A stretch of 46,405 nt of DNA from Singulisphaera sp. GP187 (GTDB taxonomy: Bacteria; Planctomycetota; Planctomycetia; Gemmatales; Gemmataceae), in NCBI GenBank assembly GCA_945905925.1, contig CAMDQN010000045.1:1-46405 (forward strand), read 5' to 3'. Positions 10,300 through 26,390 of this stretch are shown piece by piece. The notes beneath the pieces are model-generated. The model did no database searches. It saw nothing but the letters and a program-made list of their open reading frames with translations, and was not told the origin of the DNA. The position numbers and the translations under genes were made by a program. Position 1 is the first letter of the stretch. The number at the start of each line of letters is the position of its first letter.

Positions 10300-13011
10300 T
10301 CACACCTTTACGGCCGTGACGCGCTTGCCAGTGTGGCGTGTGAAGAGCGATTCGAGACGCTTCGCGAGCTCCACTGGGTCGCCGCTGCGACAGCGGAACG
10401 TCGTGCCGCGAATCGTGGTCACGTGCGGGTACACCGCGAGGAAGTCCTTATCGACCGGCCCGTCGGTCGGCTTGCACAACGCGGTCCACGCGTCCATCAG
10501 TTCCCCGTGGTCGGCACCGGTCAACTGTAGGTCGAAGCGGCCGTTTCCGCGTGGCGCGCTCGCCGCTCGCGGTTCGGTGGACACGACTGTCACCGACTCC
10601 GTCGCGTCGCTGAAGTCGAACCCGACTTCGCCGTGCTCCGTCCGGTCCAGCCCCTCGGCTTCCGACTTCAGGTCGGTCTTGAATTTGCCGAGCGTGATTG
10701 CTTGTGTGAGGAGCACCAAGGCGAGGCTCAGCACGAATGCGAACACGACGGAGAACACAGCAGCCTTGATTTGGATGAACAACTGTGACAGCCCGGACTT
10801 CTTGTCCTTACCGTTGTTGGCTTTGTCGTCTTGCTTGGCGACCAGCGCAGTCAGGTCGTCGCGTTCCTTCTCCAGAGCCGCGAGGGTCGCGGCTTTGTCG
10901 GCCAAGATGCCGTTCGCATCATCGAGCTTCTTGTTCTCGTCGGTTTCTTTCGTCTTTGCCTCTTCGAGTTTCTTCGTGGTCTCCGCCACCGCGTCGAGTT
11001 TCTTCTGAATGGCCTCGGCCTTGGTCTTGGCTGCGGCCAGTTCCTTCTCGGCCGTACTCTTGGCGTCTGACGCTTCCTTGTACGCGGCGACCTCGTCTTC
11101 CAGGTCGTCGATCTTCAGGTCAGCCAATTCCTTCGTCAACTCTTCCGCCTTTGCGTCCGACAGGCTCTTCTGCAGCGCGGCGATGCCGAGTTTCTCGATC
11201 TCCGCGTTCACTTCGCGGGTGGCTTTGACCACTTCGCCGTTCGCGGCGCGCTTCGCGGCCTTCGCCTTGGCGATCGGTTCGGCGTCGGTCGAAGTGCCGC
11301 CCTTTTCGATGGGCTTGAGCGCCTCGTAGCGTGCCCGGTGTGCGCTGAACGCGAACGGGCCATCGGTCCCAGCCGAGTTCACCATCGTGGAGCAGAACAC
11401 GCCGGTCAAGATGGCCCCGACGAAGCCGCCGATCCCGTGGACGCCGAACGCGTCGAGCGAGTCGTCGTAGCCAAGTTTGTTCTTCAGCGCGACCGCGAGG
11501 TAGCACAACAGCGCCGCCGCGATGCCGATGAACACTGCACCCCACATGTACACGAAGCCGCTCGCGGGCGTGACCGCGACTAACCCCGCGACGATCCCCG
11601 ACGCCAGACCGAGTGCCGTAGGCTTGCCCTTGTGAATCCATTCCACGAACATCCAGCCTAAGCCCGCGGCGGCAGCAGCGGCTTGGGTCGCGGCGAACGC
11701 GGACCCGGCCAGCCCGTCGCCGCGGCCAGAACTACCGCCGTTGAAACCGAACCACCCGAACCACAGCAACCCAGCCCCGAGGAGCGTGAGCACCATACTG
11801 TTCGGGTGCGCAATCTGCTTCGGATACCCCGCGCGCTTGCCGAGCACGAGACAGCACGCGAGGCCCGCCATACCCGCGGCGATGTGAACGACCGTGCCGC
11901 CAGCAAAGTCCAGCGCTCCCATCTTCCCGAGCAACCCGATCGCCGCTCCGCCGCGCTTGGCCGCGAGTACGGTTGTGTCGTACCAGTCGAATGCCCAAAC
12001 CATGTGCGCCAGCGGGCAGTACACGAACGTGACCCACAGCAGCATGAAGATGCAGAACGGCCAGAACCGGATGCGTTCGGCGATGGCCCCGCTAATCAGT
12101 GCCGGCGTGATGATCGCGAACATGCCCTGAAACATGACGTGAACGTAAACCGGGATGTCGTAGCCGCCGAGCTTCGTGGCCGGCTCGATTCCCTTGAGGA
12201 AGAACAGATCCCAGCTCCACCCGAACAGCCCACCCTTTTCCACGCCGAATAGATCGAGTTGTATCACCGACGGTCCGAACGCGAGCGCGTACCCGACCGC
12301 GACCCAGTACACCCCGACAACCGCGAGCGCCGCCATGCTTTGCATCATCGTGGCGAGGACGTTCTTGCGGCGCACCATACCGCCATAGAAGAGCGCCAAC
12401 CCGGGCACCATGAATAGGACAAGCGCGCTGGAAGTTAGCAGCCAGGCCGTGTCGCCACGCTCTTTCCCGGCCGTTGCTGCCGCCCCGGCGTCGGCTACAC
12501 CTTTGTCCGCGACCTTCTTGGCTTCATCTGCGGCTTTCTTGGCTTCATCCGCAGCTTTCTTGGTCTCGTCCGCTGTAGTTTTGGTTGCTTCCGCGCTTTT
12601 TTCCAGTGCGCCGAGTTTGTCCGCAGTCGCTTTCGTATCGCTGCCTGCGGCCTTAATCGCTTCGACTTCCTTGGTGAGTGCGTTGGTCTTCACCGTCAGC
12701 GCGTCGAGTTGCGTCTTCGTCGCGGTGGTCGACTTTGCGGTATCGACTTCCTTCTTGATCGCGTCCACCTTGGCAGTGGCGGCTTTCGCGTCCACGGTCG
12801 TGGTCGACTTCAGGTCCGCGAGTGCTTTCTCCGCCTTCTCCAGCGCCTTCGCGAGTTTGGCGACGGCTTTGTCCGTCTCTGCGAGGTCGGCTTTAGTGGC
12901 CGGCTTTTCATCTTGAGCCGAGGCTCTTCCGGTGCCGGGTGCCCATGTGCCGGGCAGTAGGCAACAGCCGGCGAAGAGCAGAGCGGCGAACAACAGACGG
13001 CGGGCTTGCAT
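10300..13011 (-). CDS. amt: Amt/Rh-family ammonium transporter with two added coiled coils and a C-terminal extension
   Basis: A 903-residue protein, about twice the usual 400-450. It has a signal peptide (residues 1-32), an Ala/Lys-rich coiled coil (about 38-175), then the Amt core: TAWLLTSSALVLFMVPGLALFYGGMV-type TM1 from 188, SGAIAERI (307-314), and the twin pore histidines His376 (TVVHIAAG) and His525 (GVHGIGG). After TM10 (ending about 545) a second, roughly 180-residue coiled coil (556-738) interrupts the channel before TM11 (745-772). The cytoplasmic tail keeps EGLDRTEHGE and adds about 100 residues (805-903) of unknown domain. By standard N-out Amt topology both coiled coils are periplasmic. 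An AAGGTG ribosome site precedes the ATG. It probably forms a trimer imported-ammonium channel regulated by the PII encoded downstream; the coiled-coil role is unknown. Confidence 0.9.
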   Translation of the reverse strand: MQARRLLFAALLFAGCCLLPGTWAPGTGRASAQDEKPATKADLAETDKAVAKLAKALEKAEKALADLKSTTTVDAKAATAKVDAIKKEVDTAKSTTATKTQLDALTVKTNALTKEVEAIKAAGSDTKATADKLGALEKSAEATKTTADETKKAADEAKKAADEAKKVADKGVADAGAAATAGKERGDTAWLLTSSALVLFMVPGLALFYGGMVRRKNVLATMMQSMAALAVVGVYWVAVGYALAFGPSVIQLDLFGVEKGGLFGWSWDLFFLKGIEPATKLGGYDIPVYVHVMFQGMFAIITPALISGAIAERIRFWPFCIFMLLWVTFVYCPLAHMVWAFDWYDTTVLAAKRGGAAIGLLGKMGALDFAGGTVVHIAAGMAGLACCLVLGKRAGYPKQIAHPNSMVLTLLGAGLLWFGWFGFNGGSSGRGDGLAGSAFAATQAAAAAAGLGWMFVEWIHKGKPTALGLASGIVAGLVAVTPASGFVYMWGAVFIGIAAALLCYLAVALKNKLGYDDSLDAFGVHGIGGFVGAILTGVFCSTMVNSAGTDGPFAFSAHRARYEALKPIEKGGTSTDAEPIAKAKAAKRAANGEVVKATREVNAEIEKLGIAALQKSLSDAKAEELTKELADLKIDDLEDEVAAYKEASDAKSTAEKELAAAKTKAEAIQKKLDAVAETTKKLEEAKTKETDENKKLDDANGILADKAATLAALEKERDDLTALVAKQDDKANNGKDKKSGLSQLFIQIKAAVFSVVFAFVLSLALVLLTQAITLGKFKTDLKSEAEGLDRTEHGEVGFDFSDATESVTVVSTEPRAASAPRGNGRFDLQLTGADHGELMDAWTALCKPTDGPVDKDFLAVYPHVTTIRGTTFRCRSGDPVELAKRLESLFTRHTGKRVTAVKV

Positions 13012-13496
13012 TACGCACCTTGGTTAAGCACATCTAGGCAGGGGGATCGCCAGTTCTTCAGCACTGGCACCGAAAAACGAATGCGGTGGTACACATGCGT
13101 GCCAGAAAGCACCCTCGGTGCCGGGCCCGAAAAAAAACACCGAATAGTTACATCTATCATCAAGACTTGAAGTTGTGTCTTGAGAAAGAATCGTCCAGAA
13201 TTGCTGCGGACCTGGAGATGTGCGCGATTTGCGCGCAGAACTGCATCGAATTCGATCTTCAGATTCAAGTGACTTCTGGGAGGGAAGCGAGGTACGCACG
13301 GAGCAGTCGTTACAACTGGTACTTGCGATTGCCGATTTGCGCCGAGATGACCGGTTCTGGTCTCATTTCTGGAAGTGTCCTGCCGATTCCTACCCCACCA
13401 GGATTCGTTAGTCACCCCAAATCCGTTTTACGGACGAATCGGTTAAGGGGAAGAGACGCGATTTCCATCCACGTTTCAGATTACTGGAAGGATTCC
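13012..13496. promoter_or_regulatory. divergent intergenic region between amt and porin, 485 bp
   Basis: Both neighbouring genes are read outward, so two promoters should lie here. The stretch is less GC-rich than the genes around it, with an A-run near 13130 (CGAAAAAAAACACC). A small hairpin GCCAGT/ACTGGC occurs near 13050. I searched by eye for a sigma-54 site (TGGCAC-N5-TTGC) and found only a half match (TGGCAC at about 13067), so nitrogen control by that route is not supported. No convincing gene is present. Confidence 0.5.
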
Positions 13497-14795
13497 ATGA
13501 ACACGATCGTATTGCTCACTGCTCTCGCCGCTGGACAACTCCCAGACGCCCCGCCGTCGGGCGGGGTTGCGTTGCCCGCGATTCCGCAACCGGGCGTGCG
13601 CACACAGCTCCCGATGCCGACCATGCCGCCCGCCGGGATGCCGATGGGGATGCCCATGATGAACGGCAACGGTGCAGCGCAGCCAGAAGAACCGAAGCCC
13701 GACGCGCCAGAACCTTATGCGCTGATGCGGTTGCTTCAGACGACTCAGTTCGGTCAGGGCTTGACCGACCGCGGGATCAGCATCTCCGGCTGGGCGCAGG
13801 GCAGCTACACTGCCAGCAGCGCCAACCGGAGCAACCTGCCGATCACGTTCAACGACCGGGCGGATTTCTTCCAGATGAACCAGCACTTCCTGCGCATCAA
13901 CAAGGACATCGACACCAGCAAGGAAGAGTTCCAGTTTGGGTTCCGCACAGAGTGGATCCTGCCCGGCACCGACGCCCGGTTTACGCAGTCACGCGGACTG
14001 CTCAACGGACAGACCGGCGACTACCAGATCGACCTGCTCCAGGCGTATGGCGAAGTTTTCCTGCCGAACCTGGGGCCGAAGGGCACCTCGGTGAAGGTCG
14101 GCAAGATCGCGACGCACTGTTCGTATGAACTCATGCAGGGTGCCGAGACGCCGTTCCTGTCACGATCCTACGGGTTCCAGTACAACCCGTTCACGCACAC
14201 CGGTGTGTACGCAACATCCCAACTGAACGACACCTGGACGGTGGCGAACGGTTTGGTCGTGGGCAGCGACAATTTCATCGACTCGGCGAACCAAGCGACC
14301 TACGTCGGTCAGTTGAAGTGGGCGCCGAAGGACGGTAAGACCAGCGTGCTGTTCAACACGGTCTTGACCGATCCGCGGTTCGATGTGGCCGAGGCGTTCC
14401 CGTACTACAACGTGTACAACATGGTGTTCACCCACAACTTCAACGACAAGTTGAGCTACGTGATGGACGCGACGTTCTCGCACATCGACGGCGCCCCGCT
14501 GGGTGGCGGCGCGGTGGGGTCGGCGACGTGGTACGGTGCGGCGAGCTACTTGATCTACAAGCACACGGAACAGGTCACAAGCACCTTCCGCGCCGAGTGG
14601 TTCGAGGACACGAAAGGGTTCCGCACCGGCTCGAAGGGGCTGTACACCGGTCTGACCTACGGGGTCGCGTACGCGGCGAAGCCGGGGCTGATCTTCCGCC
14701 CGAGCGTCCGGTATGACCACAACAATGAGAGCAACCCGTTCGAGGGCAAGGCAAATCTGTACTCCGGTGGGATCGACGTGATCATCCGCTACTAA
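13497..14795 (+). CDS. outer-membrane beta-barrel porin (BBP2/OmpL-like)
   Basis: A 432-residue protein; the ATG at 13497 follows a GGAAGGA ribosome site and opens a short signal peptide (MNTIVLLTALAAGQ). A Pro/Met-rich linker (residues 15-65) precedes a barrel rich in alternating polar and hydrophobic strands. Landmarks are GISISGWAQGSYTAS, FQMNQHFLRINKDIDT, KVGKIATHCSYELMQGAETPF and YGFQYNPFTHTGVYA, typical of the planctomycete BBP2 (putative beta-barrel porin-2) family, ending in an aromatic residue (DVIIRY). It should sit in the outer membrane and pass small solutes. Its divergence from the ammonium transporter suggests it supplies nitrogen substrates; this is inference from position. A strong terminator follows. 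Confidence 0.85.
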   Translation: MNTIVLLTALAAGQLPDAPPSGGVALPAIPQPGVRTQLPMPTMPPAGMPMGMPMMNGNGAAQPEEPKPDAPEPYALMRLLQTTQFGQGLTDRGISISGWAQGSYTASSANRSNLPITFNDRADFFQMNQHFLRINKDIDTSKEEFQFGFRTEWILPGTDARFTQSRGLLNGQTGDYQIDLLQAYGEVFLPNLGPKGTSVKVGKIATHCSYELMQGAETPFLSRSYGFQYNPFTHTGVYATSQLNDTWTVANGLVVGSDNFIDSANQATYVGQLKWAPKDGKTSVLFNTVLTDPRFDVAEAFPYYNVYNMVFTHNFNDKLSYVMDATFSHIDGAPLGGGAVGSATWYGAASYLIYKHTEQVTSTFRAEWFEDTKGFRTGSKGLYTGLTYGVAYAAKPGLIFRPSVRYDHNNESNPFEGKANLYSGGIDVIIRY

Positions 14796-16544: not shown

Positions 16545-16581
16545 AGTCGAACCTCAACACATTCTCTCCTTGGGGGGTGCC

Positions 16582-19500
16582 ATGCGCGCGAAGATGCCAA
16601 AGTCGTGGGTCGCGATCAGTCTGGCGCTTGGTGTGCTGGTTTGCGGCCTGTTGTGGCTGGCTCGCCCTCTGGAGGGGAAGCCGAACGGTAAGGGGCCGTT
16701 CAACATCACCGTTCCGAAGGTTTCGACCGATCCCGCGATCAAGTACGACTACGACATCGTCTATGTCCGCACGCCGCGAAAGGACAACAAACCGCACAGC
16801 AGTCGCTGGCCCGATGCCACACTGCCGCTGAACGTGGACGCGGGCGGCGACCTGATGCTCTTGCACCCCGACGGCACGGAGGATGTGCTGGTCGCCAGCG
16901 GCAAAGGCTCGGTGACGGACCCGTTCGTGTCCTTCGACGGCGAGTGGGTCTTCTACTCGCACTTCGAGGATCTATCAAAGCGTATCGGCCAGACCAGCGG
17001 GCCGGTGGACATCTACAAGATTCATGTGAAGACCAAGAAGGTCGTGCGCCTGACACATCAGGAGTTCACGCCCAACACCGGTGCCGCGAAGTGGGCAAAG
17101 GACTTTCGCACGCCGGAACCGGGCAAGACCACGCAGCCGTACCCGATCTGCAACCTGGGGCCGTGCCCGCTGCCGGGCGGCCGCGTGATGTTCACCAGCA
17201 ACCGCAACGGCTTCGAGATGCCGCGTGGCAACAACCTGGGTTTCAACATCCCCTTCCAACTGTTTGTGATGGATGGCGATGGCAGCAATGTGGAAATGAT
17301 CGGCCACTTGAACATCGCCAGCGCCCTGCACCCGGTGCCGCTCAAGGACGGGCGCGTGATGTTCAGTTCGCTCGAAGACCAGGGGTTCCGAAACGATCTG
17401 GACTGGGCCATCTGGAGCATCCATCCCGACGGCACGAAGTGGAATCCCATCCTGAGCGCCTACGGCGGTTCGGCCTTCCACTTCCAGACACAGCTTTCGG
17501 ACGAAAGCATCGTCGCGGCGTTCTACTACGGGGGGAAGAACGAAGGCTTCGGCACATTCGTGAAGGTGCCACCGACCCCGCAGGGGGAGCCTCCGTTCGG
17601 ACCGGCGTACAAAAACGATCCCCGGAACGGCAAGTCGATCGCCGACATCGGGAACCACGGGTTCCGGCCACACGGGCTGGAGGCGCTGACGCGTTTCGCC
17701 CACGGCGGCGACTGGCCCGCGCTCTCCTCGGTGCCCGGCAAGGACGACGCTCCGCGAATGGGTAAGGTCACTCAACCTTCGGGCGCACCGGATAATCACC
17801 TGCTCTGCACCTACTCCCCGGGCAACGCCCACTTCGCGAGCGCCCACACCGTGAAGCGGCCCGGCGAAACGCTCCTCGACGCCGGGATTTATCTGATCAA
17901 GTCCGGCAAGCCGATCGACGAACCGGCAGAGATGTTCCTCATCAGGAACAATCCCGATTACCACGAACAGTGGCCGCGATCACTTGTCCCCTACAAGCGC
18001 ATTTATGGCGTGGACGAGCCGAAGAACCTCCCGCGACTCCCCAACGATGGCAAATTGTCGAAACACCTTCCTGAAGGCACGCCGTTCGGGTTGGTCGGCA
18101 CTTCGAGCTTCTACAAGCGCGAAACCTTCCCCAATGGGATCGTCCGCCCAGGCGAAGTGACCGCGACCTGGCCCGGGAAAGGCCCGGTGCCATACCGCAA
18201 CTGGGAGGAGGGCAACTGGGGCAGTCAGGGCGCGGACGCGGGCCTCTACACCAACGATCAGATCCACGCCATCCGCATCCTGGGCATGGAACCGGCGACC
18301 GCGCGCCGCAACGGTGAGAAGGGGGGCCGGCTCTTCTACAACCACGCGCGGGAGCGATTACGCATCCTCGCGGAAATCCCGCTGCGCAAGTTCGGCGCGG
18401 ACGGTAAACAGCCGACCGACCCGGACGGAAACCCGGACACCAGTTTCCTCGCGAAGATCCCGGCCGACGTGCCGTTCACGTTCCAGACGCTCGACAAGAA
18501 CGGGATGGTGCTGAACATGGCGCAGACGTGGCACCAAGTGCGCCCCGGCGAGATTCGCAACGATTGCGGCGGCTGTCACGCACACTCGCAAAAGCCCACC
18601 GACTTCAACCTGACCGCCGCCGCGACGAAGGGATACCAGGTGTTCGACGCCGTCGTGCAAACGCCGTTGTTGACCACCAAGCAGCAGGACAAGTCCGGCA
18701 AGCAGTGGGACGTGAAGAACGAAACCGGTCTGCGATTCGAGACTCGCGTCAAGGACATCGAATTCCACCGCGACGTCAAACCAATCCTCGAACGCAGTTG
18801 CGTAGCCTGTCACACTCAGAAGTCGGAGAAGCCAGCCGGCAACCTCGTGCTGGACGACGACAAGATGCACAGGGACCACGTCGCGCACAACTTCCCCGGC
18901 ACCTACTACCGGCTGGCGAGCGACCCGAAGGCGCTCTTCGGGCACAAGCCGTTCGGCAAGGAGGGGTGGGGCGAGGGGATGCGGAAGTCGCGTTACGTTT
19001 GGGCGTTCCAGTCGCGGCGCAGTTTGCTCGTCTGGAAAATCTTCGGCGCGCGGCTCGACGGCTTCAGCAACGACGACCACCCGATGGAAGCCGTCCCCGG
19101 CGATCCCAGCAGCCTCGTGCTCAAGGGCCAACCCTACAAGCCGGGGCCCGAAAACCGCTTGCACCCCGACGTCGGCTATACGGGCAGCATCATGCCGCCA
19201 CCGGAAGCGGTGAAGGCCGGAAAGGTGAAGCCGCTCAGCGATGAGGACCGGTTGACCCTGGTGCGCTGGGTCGATCTGGGTTGCCCCATTGATCTCGATT
19301 ACGACCCGGGGCACCCCGACCAGCGCGGCTACGGCTGGATGCTCGACGACACCCGCCCCACGTTGACGCTGACCGCGCCACAGCCCGGCGCGAATCCTCC
19401 GCTGACGCGAATCCTGATCGGGATGCACGACTACAACACGGGGCTTGACTTGGAGAGCTTCGAGGTAGTCGCGGATTTCGCGGTTGACGGCACGAAGCCC

Positions 19501-19674
19501 GGCGATGATCTGGCGAAGAAGTTCAAGGCGTTGCCCGATAACCGCTGGGAGTTGCGACTCGAGAAGCCGGTCGCCGAGCTACCGAAGGGCAAACTCACCG
19601 TGTCCGTCAAGGACAAACAGGGCAACGTGACCCGCATCGAGCGCACGTTCTCGGTGACAGTCGCGGGGAGATAG
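16582..19674 (+). CDS. HzsA-like beta-propeller protein with two c-type heme motifs
   Basis: A 1030-residue protein, started at ATG 16582 behind a GGGGGG ribosome site. It has a signal or anchor helix (WVAISLALGVLVCGLLWLA). The long N-terminal half is a TolB/PD40-like propeller with repeated blades such as DYDIVYVRTPRKD, GEWVFYSHFEDL, GGRVMFTSNRNGFE and DGRVMFSSLEDQG. The C-terminal part carries two heme-attachment motifs, CGGCH (Cys662) and CVACH (Cys740), then a region with SIMPPPEAVKAGKVKPLSDE typical of planctomycete cytochromes, and a final Ig-like beta domain (about 930-1030). It resembles proteins annotated as related to hydrazine synthase alpha subunit, whose propeller also carries c-hemes. 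No HzsB/C partner lies nearby, so hydrazine synthesis is not claimed. A DUF1501 gene follows. Confidence 0.75.
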   Translation: MRAKMPKSWVAISLALGVLVCGLLWLARPLEGKPNGKGPFNITVPKVSTDPAIKYDYDIVYVRTPRKDNKPHSSRWPDATLPLNVDAGGDLMLLHPDGTEDVLVASGKGSVTDPFVSFDGEWVFYSHFEDLSKRIGQTSGPVDIYKIHVKTKKVVRLTHQEFTPNTGAAKWAKDFRTPEPGKTTQPYPICNLGPCPLPGGRVMFTSNRNGFEMPRGNNLGFNIPFQLFVMDGDGSNVEMIGHLNIASALHPVPLKDGRVMFSSLEDQGFRNDLDWAIWSIHPDGTKWNPILSAYGGSAFHFQTQLSDESIVAAFYYGGKNEGFGTFVKVPPTPQGEPPFGPAYKNDPRNGKSIADIGNHGFRPHGLEALTRFAHGGDWPALSSVPGKDDAPRMGKVTQPSGAPDNHLLCTYSPGNAHFASAHTVKRPGETLLDAGIYLIKSGKPIDEPAEMFLIRNNPDYHEQWPRSLVPYKRIYGVDEPKNLPRLPNDGKLSKHLPEGTPFGLVGTSSFYKRETFPNGIVRPGEVTATWPGKGPVPYRNWEEGNWGSQGADAGLYTNDQIHAIRILGMEPATARRNGEKGGRLFYNHARERLRILAEIPLRKFGADGKQPTDPDGNPDTSFLAKIPADVPFTFQTLDKNGMVLNMAQTWHQVRPGEIRNDCGGCHAHSQKPTDFNLTAAATKGYQVFDAVVQTPLLTTKQQDKSGKQWDVKNETGLRFETRVKDIEFHRDVKPILERSCVACHTQKSEKPAGNLVLDDDKMHRDHVAHNFPGTYYRLASDPKALFGHKPFGKEGWGEGMRKSRYVWAFQSRRSLLVWKIFGARLDGFSNDDHPMEAVPGDPSSLVLKGQPYKPGPENRLHPDVGYTGSIMPPPEAVKAGKVKPLSDEDRLTLVRWVDLGCPIDLDYDPGHPDQRGYGWMLDDTRPTLTLTAPQPGANPPLTRILIGMHDYNTGLDLESFEVVADFAVDGTKPGDDLAKKFKALPDNRWELRLEKPVAELPKGKLTVSVKDKQGNVTRIERTFSVTVAGR

Positions 19675-21673: not shown

Positions 21674-23290
21674 TCACCCGCTCGGATGGCCGGCCGCCCA
21701 TTCTGGACGCGACCACGGTTTGCGGAACTTTGCGAACGGATCAAACCGATTGAGTTCGGCGTTTACCACGAGCGATTGCTCCAGCGTCTTCCGAACTGGT
21801 TGTGGCGCTATCGTTGCGTGATCGAATTTCGCCTGCGATGCGGAAACCGGGTGCGTTCTCAGGCGAACCGACCCGCCAAACATTTCGGCGAGTCTGTTGT
21901 CCGAGCGGTTGTTCAGATGGAAGGTGCGCAGAAGACTTGTATCGTTGGGGCACCGCCCGTCGGCATCGTCCGACGCGAACGCATCCGCGTCCGCCGGGCA
22001 ACTCGCGAAGAGTTCGTTGCCCCCCAACTCCGCCGCGGCCACGCCTTTCTTGCGGCTTCCCTTGTGGCACCTCGCACAGTTATCAAGATTCAAGCCGTTC
22101 TTGTGTTTTCGGACCATCTTTTCTGGGGTGTGTTCGTGACAGCCATAGCAGGTGTACGTCTTGTAGGCGTCTTCGCCTTTGTGGCACGTGACACACGAAC
22201 TATCCCCGCGATTCTTCCGCCCATGGGCGATCGGGAACGCGTGCTTGAAGTCGCCCAGCGTCCCGCCGGTCCACGTGCTCGTCGTGTGGCACTTGTTGCA
22301 GTCGGTCCCGAACTTGCTGCCCGCGTGAACCTTCGGCTCCACGTGGCACGACACGCAGGAGGTCGAGGTCCCCTTGAACTTGTTGTCCTTGTGGCACTGC
22401 GCGCACGTTACCGTCGTGTGCTTGCCAGTGAGTTTGAAGGCGGTCAGGTTGTGGTCGAACGTGGCGCCCGGTCCGGCGGTCGGAATCGACGCGAGCTTCC
22501 ACGTTTCGGTCGCATGACACTTCTTGCAGTCCGTGCCGAACTTGCCGAGGTGAGTCTTCGGTTCCGCGTGACACGACACGCAGGATGACGGCGTGCCCTT
22601 GAACTTGTTGTCCACGTGACACTTCTTGCAATCGACCCCCGTGTGGTGGCCCGTCAGCGGGAAGGCCGTTTGACTGTGGTCGAACGCGATGTTGCCGCTG
22701 CTTCCGGCGGCAGCGGGGAACGATGTCGTGTGCCAGGTGTTGGTCGCATGGCACTTCGCGCAGTCGGCGCCGAACTGCCCCATGTGTACCTTCGGTTCCG
22801 CGTGGCAACCGGCGCAAGTCGCAGTCGTGCCCTTGAAGGTTCTGTTGGTGTGGCACGATTTGCAATCGACCGACTGGTGCTTGCCGGTGAGCGCGAACGC
22901 GGCACAGTTGTGGTCGAAGGTGCTCAGGTCGGTGAGCGCCGCGTGTCCGCCCTTGTGTTCGGTGTGGCAGTTGCGGCACTGTTTGTTGTTGGCGAGCCGA
23001 CCGTGCAGCGTTTGGTGGCCATCGATCTGACTGCGAATGTCGGTGTGGCACGACATACACCGGTCGGCCATCGTTTCCCCGCTCCAGGGCGGGGCATGGC
23101 AGGCGGAACACTTCCCGCCCAGTTCGGCGTGTGAACTGACCCCGCCGAGTTGAACGCTGCCTCTCGGTTGTGCGTTGAGGTTGCCAGGACTGAACATCGC
23201 GCCGCCGGTCAGCGCGAGGCCCGAGCCGACGGCGCATACCGTGACCAGCACGGCGATCCGCCCCGGACTCAGATGAAGTGCCTTCGGCAT
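21674..23290 (-). CDS. 15-heme periplasmic c-type cytochrome
   Basis: A 538-residue exported protein (signal helix about 10-30; AGGTGA ribosome site before the ATG). I count 15 CxxCH motifs between Cys61 and Cys405. They fall into an N-terminal group of three, three near-identical 60-75 residue repeats of three hemes each (starting at Phe125, Phe203 and Phe278; pattern FDHxxTAFxLTGKH, then CxxCH, NKFKGT, CVSCHAEPK, GTDCKKCHA), and a C-terminal group of three (Cys366, 381, 405). Extra histidines in FDH, GKH and PKxH probably supply distal ligands. The last 130 residues (410-538) lack hemes and end WSRPEWAAGHPSG. This looks like a linear heme wire of cytochrome c3-like units. It is last in the 26390-21674 operon, 10 bases after the membrane cytochrome, which probably passes electrons to or from it. 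Confidence 0.9.
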   Translation of the reverse strand: MPKALHLSPGRIAVLVTVCAVGSGLALTGGAMFSPGNLNAQPRGSVQLGGVSSHAELGGKCSACHAPPWSGETMADRCMSCHTDIRSQIDGHQTLHGRLANNKQCRNCHTEHKGGHAALTDLSTFDHNCAAFALTGKHQSVDCKSCHTNRTFKGTTATCAGCHAEPKVHMGQFGADCAKCHATNTWHTTSFPAAAGSSGNIAFDHSQTAFPLTGHHTGVDCKKCHVDNKFKGTPSSCVSCHAEPKTHLGKFGTDCKKCHATETWKLASIPTAGPGATFDHNLTAFKLTGKHTTVTCAQCHKDNKFKGTSTSCVSCHVEPKVHAGSKFGTDCNKCHTTSTWTGGTLGDFKHAFPIAHGRKNRGDSSCVTCHKGEDAYKTYTCYGCHEHTPEKMVRKHKNGLNLDNCARCHKGSRKKGVAAAELGGNELFASCPADADAFASDDADGRCPNDTSLLRTFHLNNRSDNRLAEMFGGSVRLRTHPVSASQAKFDHATIAPQPVRKTLEQSLVVNAELNRFDPFAKFRKPWSRPEWAAGHPSG

Positions 23291-23300
23291 GAGTCACCTG

Positions 23301-24500
23301 TCAACGCACGAACGCGGTGTAATAGAGCGCCGCGGCAATGTGGACGAACGCTAGGGTAAACACCGCCGCGCCGAGCGGAATGTGCAGCACGTGCCACAGC
23401 GCGAGTAACCGCCGCGCCAGCCCGAGGGACGCGATCTGCACCTGGACGTCGTACCGCCGCATCAATAAACGTTCGAGCTGTTTCGTTCGCGCATCGGCTT
23501 TTGTCTGTGGGCGGAGTGCCCGCCGAATCCGATTGCGGTGAATCCAGCGCTGGAAACCGCGGCCCACCACCAACACCCAGCCCCTGCGCGGAATTTCTGT
23601 CGCGGTTGCGAGTGTCTCACTCTTTGCGAGGTCAATTCCATCGGCTTGCAGTTCGCGGTCGGCCTCCGCGATCTGCCCTTCCAGTTCCCGCACCGCGACT
23701 TCGGCACCGTCGATCGTTCGCGGCACCGCGGTGTAAATGTAACGGCCGATGAATCCGCTCAGGACGATCACACCTGTTAATGCCGCCAACACGCCCGCGA
23801 GTCCGTGAAAACTCCCACCCGAGTGAAGCAGAACCAGACACGGCCCCACCAGGCCGGTCACAATGTGAACCTTCAGCCAGGTACTCATCCGGCCGCGGTG
23901 GAAGTTCCGCACGCGCTTCCGAAGAGTGTACAACGTCTCCGTCGCCAACATCAGTACGAAGCCGACAATTCCGAGCGCATATCCGACCGTGCTGCTCGCG
24001 CCGGGTACACCGCGGCGGCTCAGCAGCAGGTACACGCCGGTGATAACAGCGACCGCCACCAGACCGACGAGCAGTTCGTAACTGTGCGCTCGCGGCTGCG
24101 CGCGCGGTAACCGCGGCGCGACCGGTGGTGGCGGAGGCAAGTCGAACGGAGCCTGCTGTTCCGACTCGGGGAGCAATGACGCCGCTTGCGGCTTCGCGAG
24201 CGATTCAGCGAACAACCCGCGAACCTTCCCGGCTTCGACCCACTTGGTCGAACTCCCTTTCCGCACGAAGTCGGTCGGGAGCAGTTGCCCGGCTTCGGCC
24301 ATCTGTTTCAGTTCAGCGGACGACGCACGCCCGGCTTGCACCCCGCCGCGCGTGTAATACCAGCCTTCTTCCTCGCGCGCGGGTGGAGTTCCCGCGCCCG
24401 CGTCTACTTCCGCGCCGCAATTCGGGCACAACTCCACTCCGCCCGACATCGGGAGGAAGGAGTTCTTGCACTGCGGACACGTGATCTTGCCGCCCCCCAT
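23301..24500 (-). CDS. zinc ribbon - GYF_2 - membrane b-type cytochrome
   Basis: A 399-residue membrane protein. Residues 8-28 form a zinc ribbon (Cys8, 11, 25, 28). Residues 46-98 form a GYF_2-like domain (EGWYYTRGGVQAGRAS to KWVEAGKVRGLF). A Pro-rich linker (116-136) leads to about five membrane helices (141-161, 171-191, 211-228, 231-256, 365-395). Histidines inside or at the ends of the helices, His212, His226, His232 and His370, His373, His387, are candidate bis-His b-heme ligands, as in cytochrome b561-type proteins. A charged loop of about 105 residues with a helical stretch (262-300) separates the fourth and fifth helices. The N-terminal domains should face the cytoplasm. The gene starts three bases after the oxidoreductase stop and ends ten bases before the 15-heme cytochrome, so it is the membrane step of the chain. 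Confidence 0.83.
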   Translation of the reverse strand: MGGGKITCPQCKNSFLPMSGGVELCPNCGAEVDAGAGTPPAREEEGWYYTRGGVQAGRASSAELKQMAEAGQLLPTDFVRKGSSTKWVEAGKVRGLFAESLAKPQAASLLPESEQQAPFDLPPPPPVAPRLPRAQPRAHSYELLVGLVAVAVITGVYLLLSRRGVPGASSTVGYALGIVGFVLMLATETLYTLRKRVRNFHRGRMSTWLKVHIVTGLVGPCLVLLHSGGSFHGLAGVLAALTGVIVLSGFIGRYIYTAVPRTIDGAEVAVRELEGQIAEADRELQADGIDLAKSETLATATEIPRRGWVLVVGRGFQRWIHRNRIRRALRPQTKADARTKQLERLLMRRYDVQVQIASLGLARRLLALWHVLHIPLGAAVFTLAFVHIAAALYYTAFVR

Positions 24501-24503
24501 AGC

Positions 24504-25817
24504 CTAACTCGGTACGCGCGTCTGTTCCCACTGTCGGTAGAAGCCCGCGAGGTGGGCCATCGCGTTCGCGCCCCGGAGTGCGTCACGAACCGGCGTGATG
24601 TCCGCCTTGCCGAGGATGAGCTTCTGGAGCGGGCGCGACCACGTCTGATCTCCCATGACAAGCGCGCCCGCGATGGTCCGCTCACCGATGATCAACCGAA
24701 CCCGGTTCACGTCGTCCTGTTCGCTGAGAACCCACGACTTCGGCACAATCCGCCACGCCTCACTTTCGCCGCGCGTGATCGCGACGAGGTCTTCGTTCTT
24801 TCCGCTACCGACGGCGCCGATGATCGTGACCTTCAAGCCCGTCATCTGTGTGACGTTGAACGGCACGCTCTTCGTGTACGCGATGCCCGCACCCGTCATG
24901 TTCGCGCCCGCGATTCGACCCTGTGTCAGTGCGGTCGGCCAGAGTACGTCGAGCGTGGGTTTGCCGCTTGCCGGGTCGAAGACTTCCGCGACATCGCCGG
25001 CCGCGAAGACATCCGTCGCGCTCGTCTGGAGGTACTCATTCACGATCACACCGCGATCGACTTTCAAGCCGGCTTGACGTGCGAGGTCCGCTCTCGGCTT
25101 CACGCCGATCGCGACCCCGATCACATCGCACGCGATTGTTTCCCCCCCCGCCGTTTCGACACGGGCGACGCGGTTGCGCCGCGCGCCGACGTGCGTGATC
25201 TGTGTGTTCAGGTGAACCGTGACACCTTCTTCGCGGAGCCGGTGCAGGACGATGTTCGATTCCGTTTCGTCGAGTACGTCGGCCATGTAACGGATGCCGC
25301 GAAGGAAATAATGTACGGTCATGCCGCGAGCGCGAAGTCCTTCGACCAGTTCGAGCGCGGTGACACCGCCACCGACAACCACCGCCGCTCGGCCGCGCCC
25401 GGTCTGACCGATGATGTGCCGGGTATCGTCGAGTGAGTCCAGTTTCACCACACCGAACAGGTCACCACCGGGGAACGGTGCGGGCACCGCGACCGCACCG
25501 GTCGCGAGCAGCAACCGGTCGAAGCTGAGCCGGGAGCCGTCGTCGAGGAGCAGTTCGTGTTCCGGGCAGAGAATGTTTTCGACGTTGGCCGCGACGCGTT
25601 CGAGTTTGATCGCGCGCACGTCGTCGGGGTTGCGCACCGCGAGTTGCTTCTCCGGGATGTCGCCGCGGAGCAGGTACGCGAGACCTGGGCGCGAGTAGAA
25701 GTTGTGCGCCTCCGCGCTGACCATTGTGATGCGTGCGGCCGGATCGCGTGCGCGGATGGATTCGGCCGCCGCGAGACCGGCAATGCCCGACCCGATGATG
25801 ACGTGCCTCGTGGCCAT
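24504..25817 (-). CDS. FAD/NAD(P)-dependent oxidoreductase of the ferredoxin/nitrite-reductase type
   Basis: A 437-residue class-I pyridine-nucleotide-disulfide-like flavoprotein. The FAD dinucleotide motif is GSGIAG (8-13), the NAD(P) motif is VVVGGGVTALE (about 146-156), and the C-terminal FAD motif is DVFAAGDVAE (about 269-278). No CxxxxC redox-active disulfide is present, so it is closer to the rubredoxin/ferredoxin reductases and the NirB N-terminal domain than to thioredoxin reductase. It is cytoplasmic (no signal). It lies nine bases after the ferredoxin gene and three bases before the cytochrome b gene. The likely task is moving electrons between NAD(P)H and the ferredoxin or cytochrome b; direction is not readable from sequence. 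Confidence 0.9.
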   Translation of the reverse strand: MATRHVIIGSGIAGLAAAESIRARDPAARITMVSAEAHNFYSRPGLAYLLRGDIPEKQLAVRNPDDVRAIKLERVAANVENILCPEHELLLDDGSRLSFDRLLLATGAVAVPAPFPGGDLFGVVKLDSLDDTRHIIGQTGRGRAAVVVGGGVTALELVEGLRARGMTVHYFLRGIRYMADVLDETESNIVLHRLREEGVTVHLNTQITHVGARRNRVARVETAGGETIACDVIGVAIGVKPRADLARQAGLKVDRGVIVNEYLQTSATDVFAAGDVAEVFDPASGKPTLDVLWPTALTQGRIAGANMTGAGIAYTKSVPFNVTQMTGLKVTIIGAVGSGKNEDLVAITRGESEAWRIVPKSWVLSEQDDVNRVRLIIGERTIAGALVMGDQTWSRPLQKLILGKADITPVRDALRGANAMAHLAGFYRQWEQTRVPS

Positions 25818-25826
25818 CGGGCGGCT

Positions 25827-26390
25827 CTAAAGTGTGAACAGCGGGATGCGCTCGAAGCTCAACACGCCGCGTGGGCACCGCTTGACGCACTCGCTGCACG
25901 TCAGGCAGTAGCTGTCGTGGATCGGGATGCCACGGTGCGCGTGCGCGCGGACGTCGATCTCCATCGGGCAGTTGTACGAACAGATGCCGCATTGCACGCA
26001 ACGCGCGGGATCGGGAACCACTTGAGCTTCCGCGCGTGCTTCGTGCCGCGAGTCGATGCGACCCATACCGGCGACACACGCGGTCGGTAGAGCGGCGGGG
26101 GGCGCTGGAGGCGGGGGAAGCGGCGCGGGCGATTCCTGTTCGGGGAACAACCCGCGCACCTTTTTCGCCACAATCCACTTCTCGTCCGCGGCGCGGCGCA
26201 CAAGGTCGGTTGGGGTGAGGCGTCTGCTCGCGACCAACCCCTTCAACTCTTTTGCCGTGATCGGGCCGTTTCGCTTGCCGTCGCGCGTGTAGTACCACCC
26301 GGATGGCGCTTCCCTGCAGGTAATGCAGGTCGCACGCCCGTCCTTCGGCACGAAGTACACTTTGCATTGGGGGCACAGGAGATAGTCCAC
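25827..26390 (-). CDS. zinc ribbon - GYF_2 - 2x[4Fe-4S] ferredoxin
   Basis: A 187-residue cytoplasmic protein beginning at GTG 26390 (MDYLLCPQC), with a GGGAGAAAGG purine tract upstream. A zinc ribbon (Cys6, 9, 22, 25) is followed by a GYF_2-like domain (GWYYTRDGKRNGPI to KWIVAKKVRGLF, about 31-82), a Pro-rich linker (88-102) and a two-cluster ferredoxin domain with CVQCGICSYNCP (131-142) and CLTCSECVKRCP (162-173). The front end matches that of the membrane cytochrome two genes downstream in order, spacing and key residues (GWYYTR, PTD, KW, VRGLF). It is the first gene of the four-gene electron-transfer operon and probably its soluble donor or acceptor. Confidence 0.88.
   Translation of the reverse strand: MDYLLCPQCKVYFVPKDGRATCITCREAPSGWYYTRDGKRNGPITAKELKGLVASRRLTPTDLVRRAADEKWIVAKKVRGLFPEQESPAPLPPPPAPPAALPTACVAGMGRIDSRHEARAEAQVVPDPARCVQCGICSYNCPMEIDVRAHAHRGIPIHDSYCLTCSECVKRCPRGVLSFERIPLFTL

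Follow-up and report, generated by a model that had tools for sequence, protein, structure and literature searches.

The operon and its parts

The stretch of DNA analysed here, referred to as the window, comprises 46,405 nucleotides and corresponds to the entire contig C45 (CAMDQN010000045.1) of Singulisphaera sp. GP187, whose source genome amounts to 6.47 Mb across 251 contigs. A single minus-strand run within it contains four genes, here termed FDX, FAD, CYB, and MHC, which encode an iron–sulfur (Fe-S) protein of the ferredoxin kind, a flavoprotein, a predicted membrane cytochrome b, and a 15-heme c-type cytochrome. Recomputed intergenic gaps are 9, 3, and 10 bases, and these, together with the strand and the 15 CxxCH motifs, agree exactly with an earlier note on this DNA that had drawn attention to the run. 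The genes and their principal motifs are as follows.

25827..26390, minus strand: FDX (gene 1), 187 amino acids with a GTG start, assigned from the open frame and Pfam; zinc-finger-like CPxC/CxxC N-terminus, GYF_2 at residues 32-81, proline-rich linker, 2x[4Fe-4S] dicluster at about 125-177
24504..25817, minus strand: FAD (gene 2), 437-amino-acid flavoprotein, Pyr_redox_2, NirB/PadH/AorC-like
23301..24500, minus strand: CYB (gene 3), 399 amino acids; zinc-finger-like region and GYF_2 (47-96), then a predicted five-helix cytochrome b
23823..23879, minus strand: CYB helix 3 motif, W208-x3-H212-x13-H226
23745..23759, minus strand: CYB helix 4 motif, SGFIG, residues 248-252
23340..23396, minus strand: CYB helix 5 motif, W369-x3-H373-x13-H387
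21674..23290, minus strand: MHC (gene 4), 538 amino acids, 15-heme c-type cytochrome
22064..23110, minus strand: the 15 CxxCH of MHC in five triplets, at residues 61, 78, 105 / 143, 159, 177 / 221, 237, 255 / 296, 312, 331 / 366, 381, 405

In FDX, Pfam recognises the GYF_2 domain and the Fer4 dicluster. Its zinc-finger-like and GYF_2 N-terminus is held in common with CYB (49% in one comparison, 39% in another), and is borne by both proteins in the window and at the related locus L038, and by CYB at L039, where FDX lies off the contig. In the other six of the nine loci of this kind (type 1, described below) a tblastn search gave no match to it, and among the nine it belongs to the window's genus only.

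The flavoprotein scores well beyond the Pfam cut-off for Pyr_redox_2 (173.3 bits vs 26.1) and fails the PadH equivalog of NCBIfam, NF045765 (186.1 bits vs a cut-off of 475). Its best solved relative is chain E of 8c0z, which is described as similar to ferredoxin:NADH oxidoreductases. At the position of the window's Leu172, the five solved relatives compared in the FAD alignments have Glu, whereas all 6 aligned type 1 sequences share both Leu172 and Arg173. Loss of this Glu, with an Arg following, tends to indicate NADPH use. Because Leu172-Arg173 replaces the Glu of the solved relatives, the sequence suggests that NADPH is the likelier nucleotide of FAD, rather than NADH.

The hydrophobic part of CYB falls below every Pfam cut-off, only GYF_2 being matched at the N-terminus, and its hydropathy windows at 138, 168, 207, and 233 and an overlapping pair at 365/380 are taken as five helices. 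He et al. (2017; PMC5566968) described two groups of porin–cytochrome clusters (PCC), PCC3 and PCC4, which occur in iron oxidisers and other bacteria and share an inner-membrane protein that lacks annotation. As set out in that paper, its signature comprises five helices, SGxxG on helix 4, and W-x3-H-x13-H on helices 3 and 5, and the protein probably holds two b hemes in the manner of ferric reductases and NADPH oxidases. The window CYB carries the strict SGxxG (SGFIG, 248-252) and both W-x3-H-x13-H motifs, and is, on this signature, a member of the PCC3/PCC4 inner-membrane-protein family. The "several in-helix histidines" that the earlier note had seen in the membrane protein correspond to H212, H226, H373, and H387, none of which is replaced in any of the 55 distinct CYB-family sequences, window included, of a profile alignment. 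In window numbering, the same alignment retains Trp208 in 49 sequences, Gly249 in 55, Gly252 in 54, and Trp369 in 54; the first residue of SGxxG is Ser in 34, Thr in 17, and Ala in 4, such that the strict motif fails in 21, mainly of type 2. A strict motif scan matched 41 of 70 loci, several plainly spuriously, and missed others because this Ser is replaced by Thr or Ala in many type 2 proteins; the profile alignment was used in its place.

Two H-x13-H pairs of the diheme pattern typical of PF01794, the ferric reductase/NADPH oxidase transmembrane domain, occur in CYB as a sequence pattern alone. PF01794 itself has no Pfam match in the window CYB and gives 20.3 bits vs a cut-off of 28 in its relative L109. 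CYB would bind two b hemes through the His pairs on helices 3 and 5.

MHC contains 40 His and one hydrophobic segment (residues 12-30), and is matched in Pfam by Cytochrome_C7, Cytochrom_CIII, and Cytochrom_c3_2. Its N-terminus may act as a signal anchor or a signal peptide; the largely conserved MFSPGxLNA stretch that follows the hydrophobic segment is more in keeping with a membrane tether than with signal cleavage. Across the nine type 1 loci, MHC has 15 hemes in six and 9 hemes in three, the shorter relatives being without six consecutive hemes, or two triplets' worth. In the window, MHC is the single open frame with more than two CxxCH, and no second multiheme gene was found.

Conservation of the gene order and exchange of the cytoplasmic module

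When 95 genomes of the family were searched with a CYB profile built from five sequences (E <= 1e-20), 8 proved to be carriers, distributed over 4 of 39 genera. Nine type 1 loci from these 8 genomes, the window included, were compared. The order FDX-FAD-CYB-MHC is complete at six of the nine (the window, L038, L095, L096, L097, and L098), which span four genera of the one family; at L039 and L040 the contig end cuts inside FAD, and L041 has the set without FAD. A congener with the same order has 86% protein identity in CYB and 93% in FAD, which argues that the arrangement is not due to chance. The four genes are a conserved unit, and the group that possesses it is small and confined to this family in the genomes searched. 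The earlier note had proposed looking for the order in relatives and had counted rare adjacency there against the set; within this small, one-family group, adjacency is not rare. At L041 and L097 (L097:4159-4716), a small protein that seems to have a single membrane helix and a putative PepSY-like region is encoded upstream of FDX; the L097 protein has no Pfam match at 0.001.

Beyond the family, weak relatives of the C-terminal part of CYB are found in at least 65 of 392 genomes of the phylum at E <= 1e-12, a lower bound, as six candidates were scored per genome. Four kinds of cytoplasmic neighbour adjoin these cytochromes b. Type 1, that of the window, consists of a NirB/PadH-like flavoprotein and a separate dicluster ferredoxin. 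Type 2 is a single protein uniting a Fer4 dicluster with Pyr_redox_3 (Pfam: L100, L108, L109, L111, L119). Type 3 is FNR-like and combines FAD_binding_6, NAD_binding_1, and Fer2 (Pfam: L110, L045); in wide flanks, a seven-heme gene adjoins CYB at four of five loci (L044, L045, L106, L110), and the fifth, L051, gave only a tblastn match to MHC, no seven-heme gene being called. Type 4 pairs a NuoG-like Fe-S protein with a NuoE-NuoF fusion (Pfam: L053), and a ten-heme gene was called in 11 of 13 loci. The remaining loci were typed by tblastn with Pfam-checked module proteins as queries. This gave 19 loci of type 2, 4 of type 3, and 6 with no known module within 1.5 kb among the 29 phylum-wide loci besides the window's, and 4 of type 1, 3 of type 3, and 13 of type 4 among 20 chosen relative stretches. 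On a tree of the 55 CYB sequences, type 1 (support 100/99), type 3 (100/100), and type 4 (100/99) each form one group.

Gene fusions are the strongest evidence that the cytochrome b is fed by the flavin and Fe-S proteins. At nine of the 19 type 2 loci, in nine distinct planctomycete genomes, the Fe-S/flavin part and the cytochrome b are encoded in one open frame, a count made after the removal of three places fetched twice. Pfam confirms Fer4 and Pyr_redox in all three of the fused proteins checked; the cytochrome b part lies below Pfam cut-offs and was assigned by the custom CYB profile. The nine fused loci make up one clade (100/98) on the tree of CYB sequences. Two origins of the fusion were considered and rejected, as L078 and L081 have the flavoprotein in another frame.

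Several observations concern the other module types. The window's own genome contains a second system at L052 (C38:40000-48681), which with L053 features the same cytochrome b family (CYB of about 293 amino acids), a decaheme cytochrome, a NuoE-NuoF fusion, and a NuoG-like Fe-S protein; 4-, 4-, and 5-heme cytochromes lie near L053. In L052, the NADH-dehydrogenase-like Fe-S protein bears a cNMP-binding domain, an odd addition. Near type 3 loci, a YHS domain is found on an E1-E2 ATPase in L110, with a second E1-E2 ATPase adjoining, and on a phosphorylase-like protein in L045; a link of these neighbours to metal handling is possible.

Proposed electron path, known systems, and competing explanations

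From the composition, order, and conservation of the operon, the signature residues, and the fusions in relatives, we infer that the four proteins probably constitute one membrane complex, a quinone-independent NAD(P)H:multiheme-cytochrome c oxidoreductase. NAD(P)H, more likely NADPH, would reduce the FAD of gene 2, from which electrons would pass singly to the two [4Fe-4S] clusters of FDX, then through two b hemes predicted to be stacked across the membrane in CYB, liganded by the His pairs of helices 3 and 5, and on to the c hemes of MHC, a membrane-tethered or periplasmic 15-heme wire. On energetic grounds, net flow would most likely be outward, with a reductant in the cytoplasm supplying acceptors in the periplasm. 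FDX may be docked on CYB by the GYF domains and proline-rich linkers that both proteins carry in the window's genus. The earlier note had envisaged a complete route from the cytoplasm to the heme wire. Its outline is borne out by the conserved unit and the fusions; its entry point for soluble ferredoxin is not, FDX being better read as a relay subunit that would act after the flavoprotein.

The components of this proposed complex have counterparts in several established systems. In CbcL, a cytochrome b and a multiheme cytochrome c are fused in one quinol-linked protein. The Hmc, Ohc, and Nhc complexes of sulfate reducers combine a multiheme cytochrome, an Fe-S protein, and a membrane subunit. 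PadH/AorC-type flavoproteins pair with Fe-S subunits in their enzymes. The window operon resembles CbcL, MtoC, and MtrH in that a membrane cytochrome b works with a multiheme cytochrome c; however, b and c reside on separate chains. It has the same three kinds of component as the Hmc, Ohc, and Nhc complexes, but the model of HmcA, a hexadecaheme cytochrome, scores 24.7 bits on the window vs a cut-off of 400, and none of the four proteins has an NrfD- or CCG-type domain in Pfam. PadH/AorC-type subunits are the closest named relatives of FAD (NCBIfam PadH; 8c0z chain E), and Pfam finds no ketoacid or aldehyde oxidoreductase domain in FDX, CYB, or MHC. Identities as Hmc, CbcL, ImcH/CymA, or Rnf were rejected, their defining domains or scores being absent.

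The closest comparison is with the porin–cytochrome clusters, as far as the available passages of the sources describe them. PCC3 consists of a porin, two cytochromes, and the inner-membrane protein (PMC10734462, PMC12442390). The window operon shares with it the CYB signature, the five predicted helices, and a repeat-built multiheme cytochrome, and differs in having neither an adjoining barrel-like gene nor a second multiheme cytochrome, in the 15 hemes of MHC vs a periplasmic median of 21, and in its dedicated flavoprotein and Fe-S subunit, none being described for PCC3. The follow-up papers, for example PMC10734462, PMC12442390, and PMC8788666, name no NAD(P)H module of PCC3 in these passages. 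PCC4 has an Fe-S gene and other redox genes nearby (PMC5566968); the likeness to the window lies in the inner-membrane signature and in the Fe-S gene that adjoins it in one PCC4 subgroup that includes Planctomycetes, and the difference in the cytochromes, which have 4, 5, and 10 hemes in PCC4 vs the single 15-heme protein here. It is instead L052 of the same genome, with its decaheme cytochrome, NuoEF (tblastn), and Fe-S protein (Pfam), that resembles PCC4, and the type 4 composition may already be covered in part by He et al. (2017). The earlier note had recognised no named complex of this composition. For the set as a whole this stands, in that searches of open-licence PMC full text yielded, among the papers listed, nothing on the combination apart from He et al. 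and later work on PCC3; the membrane protein, on the other hand, falls in the published PCC3/PCC4 group. Nor did the papers listed in these searches describe, for the CYB family, an NAD(P)H flavoprotein/Fe-S module of its own, split or fused. The cytochrome b family and the heme wire are thus of known kinds, and the new element is the set of cytoplasmic neighbours of the cytochrome b.

Three other explanations of the operon were weighed. Were CYB to exchange electrons with menaquinone, with the Fe-S and flavin proteins feeding or regulating the same pool, the operon would be a quinone-linked conduit. In the passages available, He et al. (2017; PMC5566968) propose such exchange with the quinone pool for the inner-membrane protein on the basis of its similarity to quinone-active cytochromes b, and PMC6295460 counts CymA, CbcL, and ImcH among the quinol oxidases or quinone reductases. 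This explanation is nonetheless unlikely, in that the Fer4/Pyr_redox/cytochrome b fusions and the swaps of the pyridine-nucleotide module fit a direct cytoplasmic donor better, and two transmembrane hemes would make a quinone unneeded. The same anatomy could also run in the other direction: NAD(P)H would be formed with electrons that the wire draws from Fe(II) or another donor in the periplasm or outside the cell. The names PCC3 and PCC4 come from a survey of iron oxidisers in which electron flow was modelled as inward (PMC5566968), and the available text of PMC12442390 reports one PCC3 inner-membrane gene as up with iron oxidation in Sideroxydans CL21; conversely, both PCC3 clusters are down-regulated on Fe(II) in Sideroxydans ES-1 according to that of PMC8788666. 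Since most periplasmic donors could form NAD(P)H only in an energetically uphill reaction, for which no energy input is visible, and a barrel-like partner was not found in the 8 carriers with profile A3 (below), we consider this direction rather improbable, more so than a quinone link. Least credible, with very little weight, is a set of four co-regulated carriers that form no single chain, for example with FDX and FAD serving a cytoplasmic reductase and CYB and MHC a separate periplasmic path: L041 retains FDX-CYB-MHC without FAD, as such independence would allow, but the conserved order, the fusion in nine genomes, and the persistence of FDX beside CYB in L041 itself all speak for a connected chain.

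Several results weigh against the NAD(P)H-driven complex, even as it remains the preferred reading. L041, a second copy in genome G035, lacks FAD, and the flavoprotein can therefore be absent or come from elsewhere. Among the 29 distant loci, the six devoid of a known module within 1.5 kb include L107, where a type 2 gene lies at a distance of 5 kb, and L102, L104, and L114, which still have none in wider flanks; at one of the 19 type 2 loci, L073, the module gene is on the opposite strand; and at four of the 13 type 4 loci (L043, L046, L054, L057) tblastn found the cNMP/Fe-S protein and not NuoEF. Heme binding by CYB is backed by no solved chain or usable model: among solved structures, phmmer gave five matches with a best E of 0.16 and a profile search none at E <= 1, and AlphaFold2, from three sequences, returned a predicted local distance difference test score (pLDDT) of 57.9, too poor for use. 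Finally, the quinone exchange proposed by He et al. stays compatible with all results here.

The CYB family was first noticed in iron-oxidising bacteria, and a quinone had previously been proposed as its electron partner within the cell; gene order, fusion, and swaps with other pyridine-nucleotide modules now make a cytoplasmic partner visible. A broader proposition, advanced tentatively, is that PCC3-like inner-membrane proteins could be the non-quinone membrane half of modular NAD(P)H:multiheme-cytochrome oxidoreductases, in which a diheme cytochrome b is paired with at least four kinds of pyridine-nucleotide module, and that several planctomycete lineages and Emticicia may use cytochromes with as many as 40 hemes to carry electrons from NADPH to the cell surface. 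If true, long heme wires would be fed straight from NAD(P)H, with no quinone step, a lower potential, and altered energetics, and there would be more candidate organisms for extracellular electron transfer among planctomycetes and Bacteroidota, a prediction testable in a cultured strain.

Outer-membrane partner and neighbouring genes

At type 2 loci, CYB is accompanied by a downstream protein of about 540-635 amino acids with an apparent signal peptide and, in the three planctomycete examples, no Pfam match. The natural C-termini of those from L099, L100, L111, L112, and L114 are Phe or Trp, and the protein is probably an outer-membrane beta-barrel. It was matched by tblastn in 10 of 11 wide-flank type 2 loci, one of them the query, L111 being the exception. 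Profile A3, built from six of these proteins, matches three of three type 2 genomes (G061 and G071 outside the profile, G186 inside) and none of the 8 genomes that carry the window's operon, in which other barrel families are possible. No barrel-like gene adjoins the window operon. As none of the 8 carriers yielded a barrel-like partner, a cell-surface route in the window's organism, and with it the reduction of an external acceptor that the earlier note had entertained, is unsupported. All 8 carriers contain heme-copper oxidase and cytochrome c assembly families, and can therefore probably respire oxygen.

A protein search with a type 2 CYB against 72,556 plasmid records returned one match, on pEMTOL02 of Emticicia oligotrophica DSM 17448 (Bacteroidota). 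The gene order there (L119:8944-17640) is ccsA, CYB, Fer4 with Pyr_redox_3, a 23-heme cytochrome, a 40-CxxCH cytochrome, and a 538-amino-acid protein; CYB carries the full signature, and the last protein matches the planctomycete barrel-like profile (E 2.8e-15 in a single-sequence search, 41.8 bits, profile positions 93-540). E. oligotrophica DSM 17448 is thus a cultured strain with the CYB, Fe-S/flavin, and barrel-like genes. A Pseudoalteromonas plasmid, second-best for the fused protein among 572 records, was rejected, its flavoprotein lying amid glycosyltransferases with no cytochrome annotated nearby.

Elsewhere in the window, a BBP2 porin gene (13086-14795) lies about 7 kb from the operon. 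A link between the two was rejected, as the porin gene sits next to one for an ammonium transporter, and the other 8 type 1 loci (5.6-14 kb each) contain a homolog of neither. The transporter, of 903 amino acids with its domain at 189-550 and long extensions at both ends, is encoded divergently from the porin within 10300-14795. On the plus strand, at 16570-19674, a 1034-amino-acid protein matches the hydrazine synthase alpha middle domain (PF18582, E 5.5e-13) and adjoins a DUF1501 gene.

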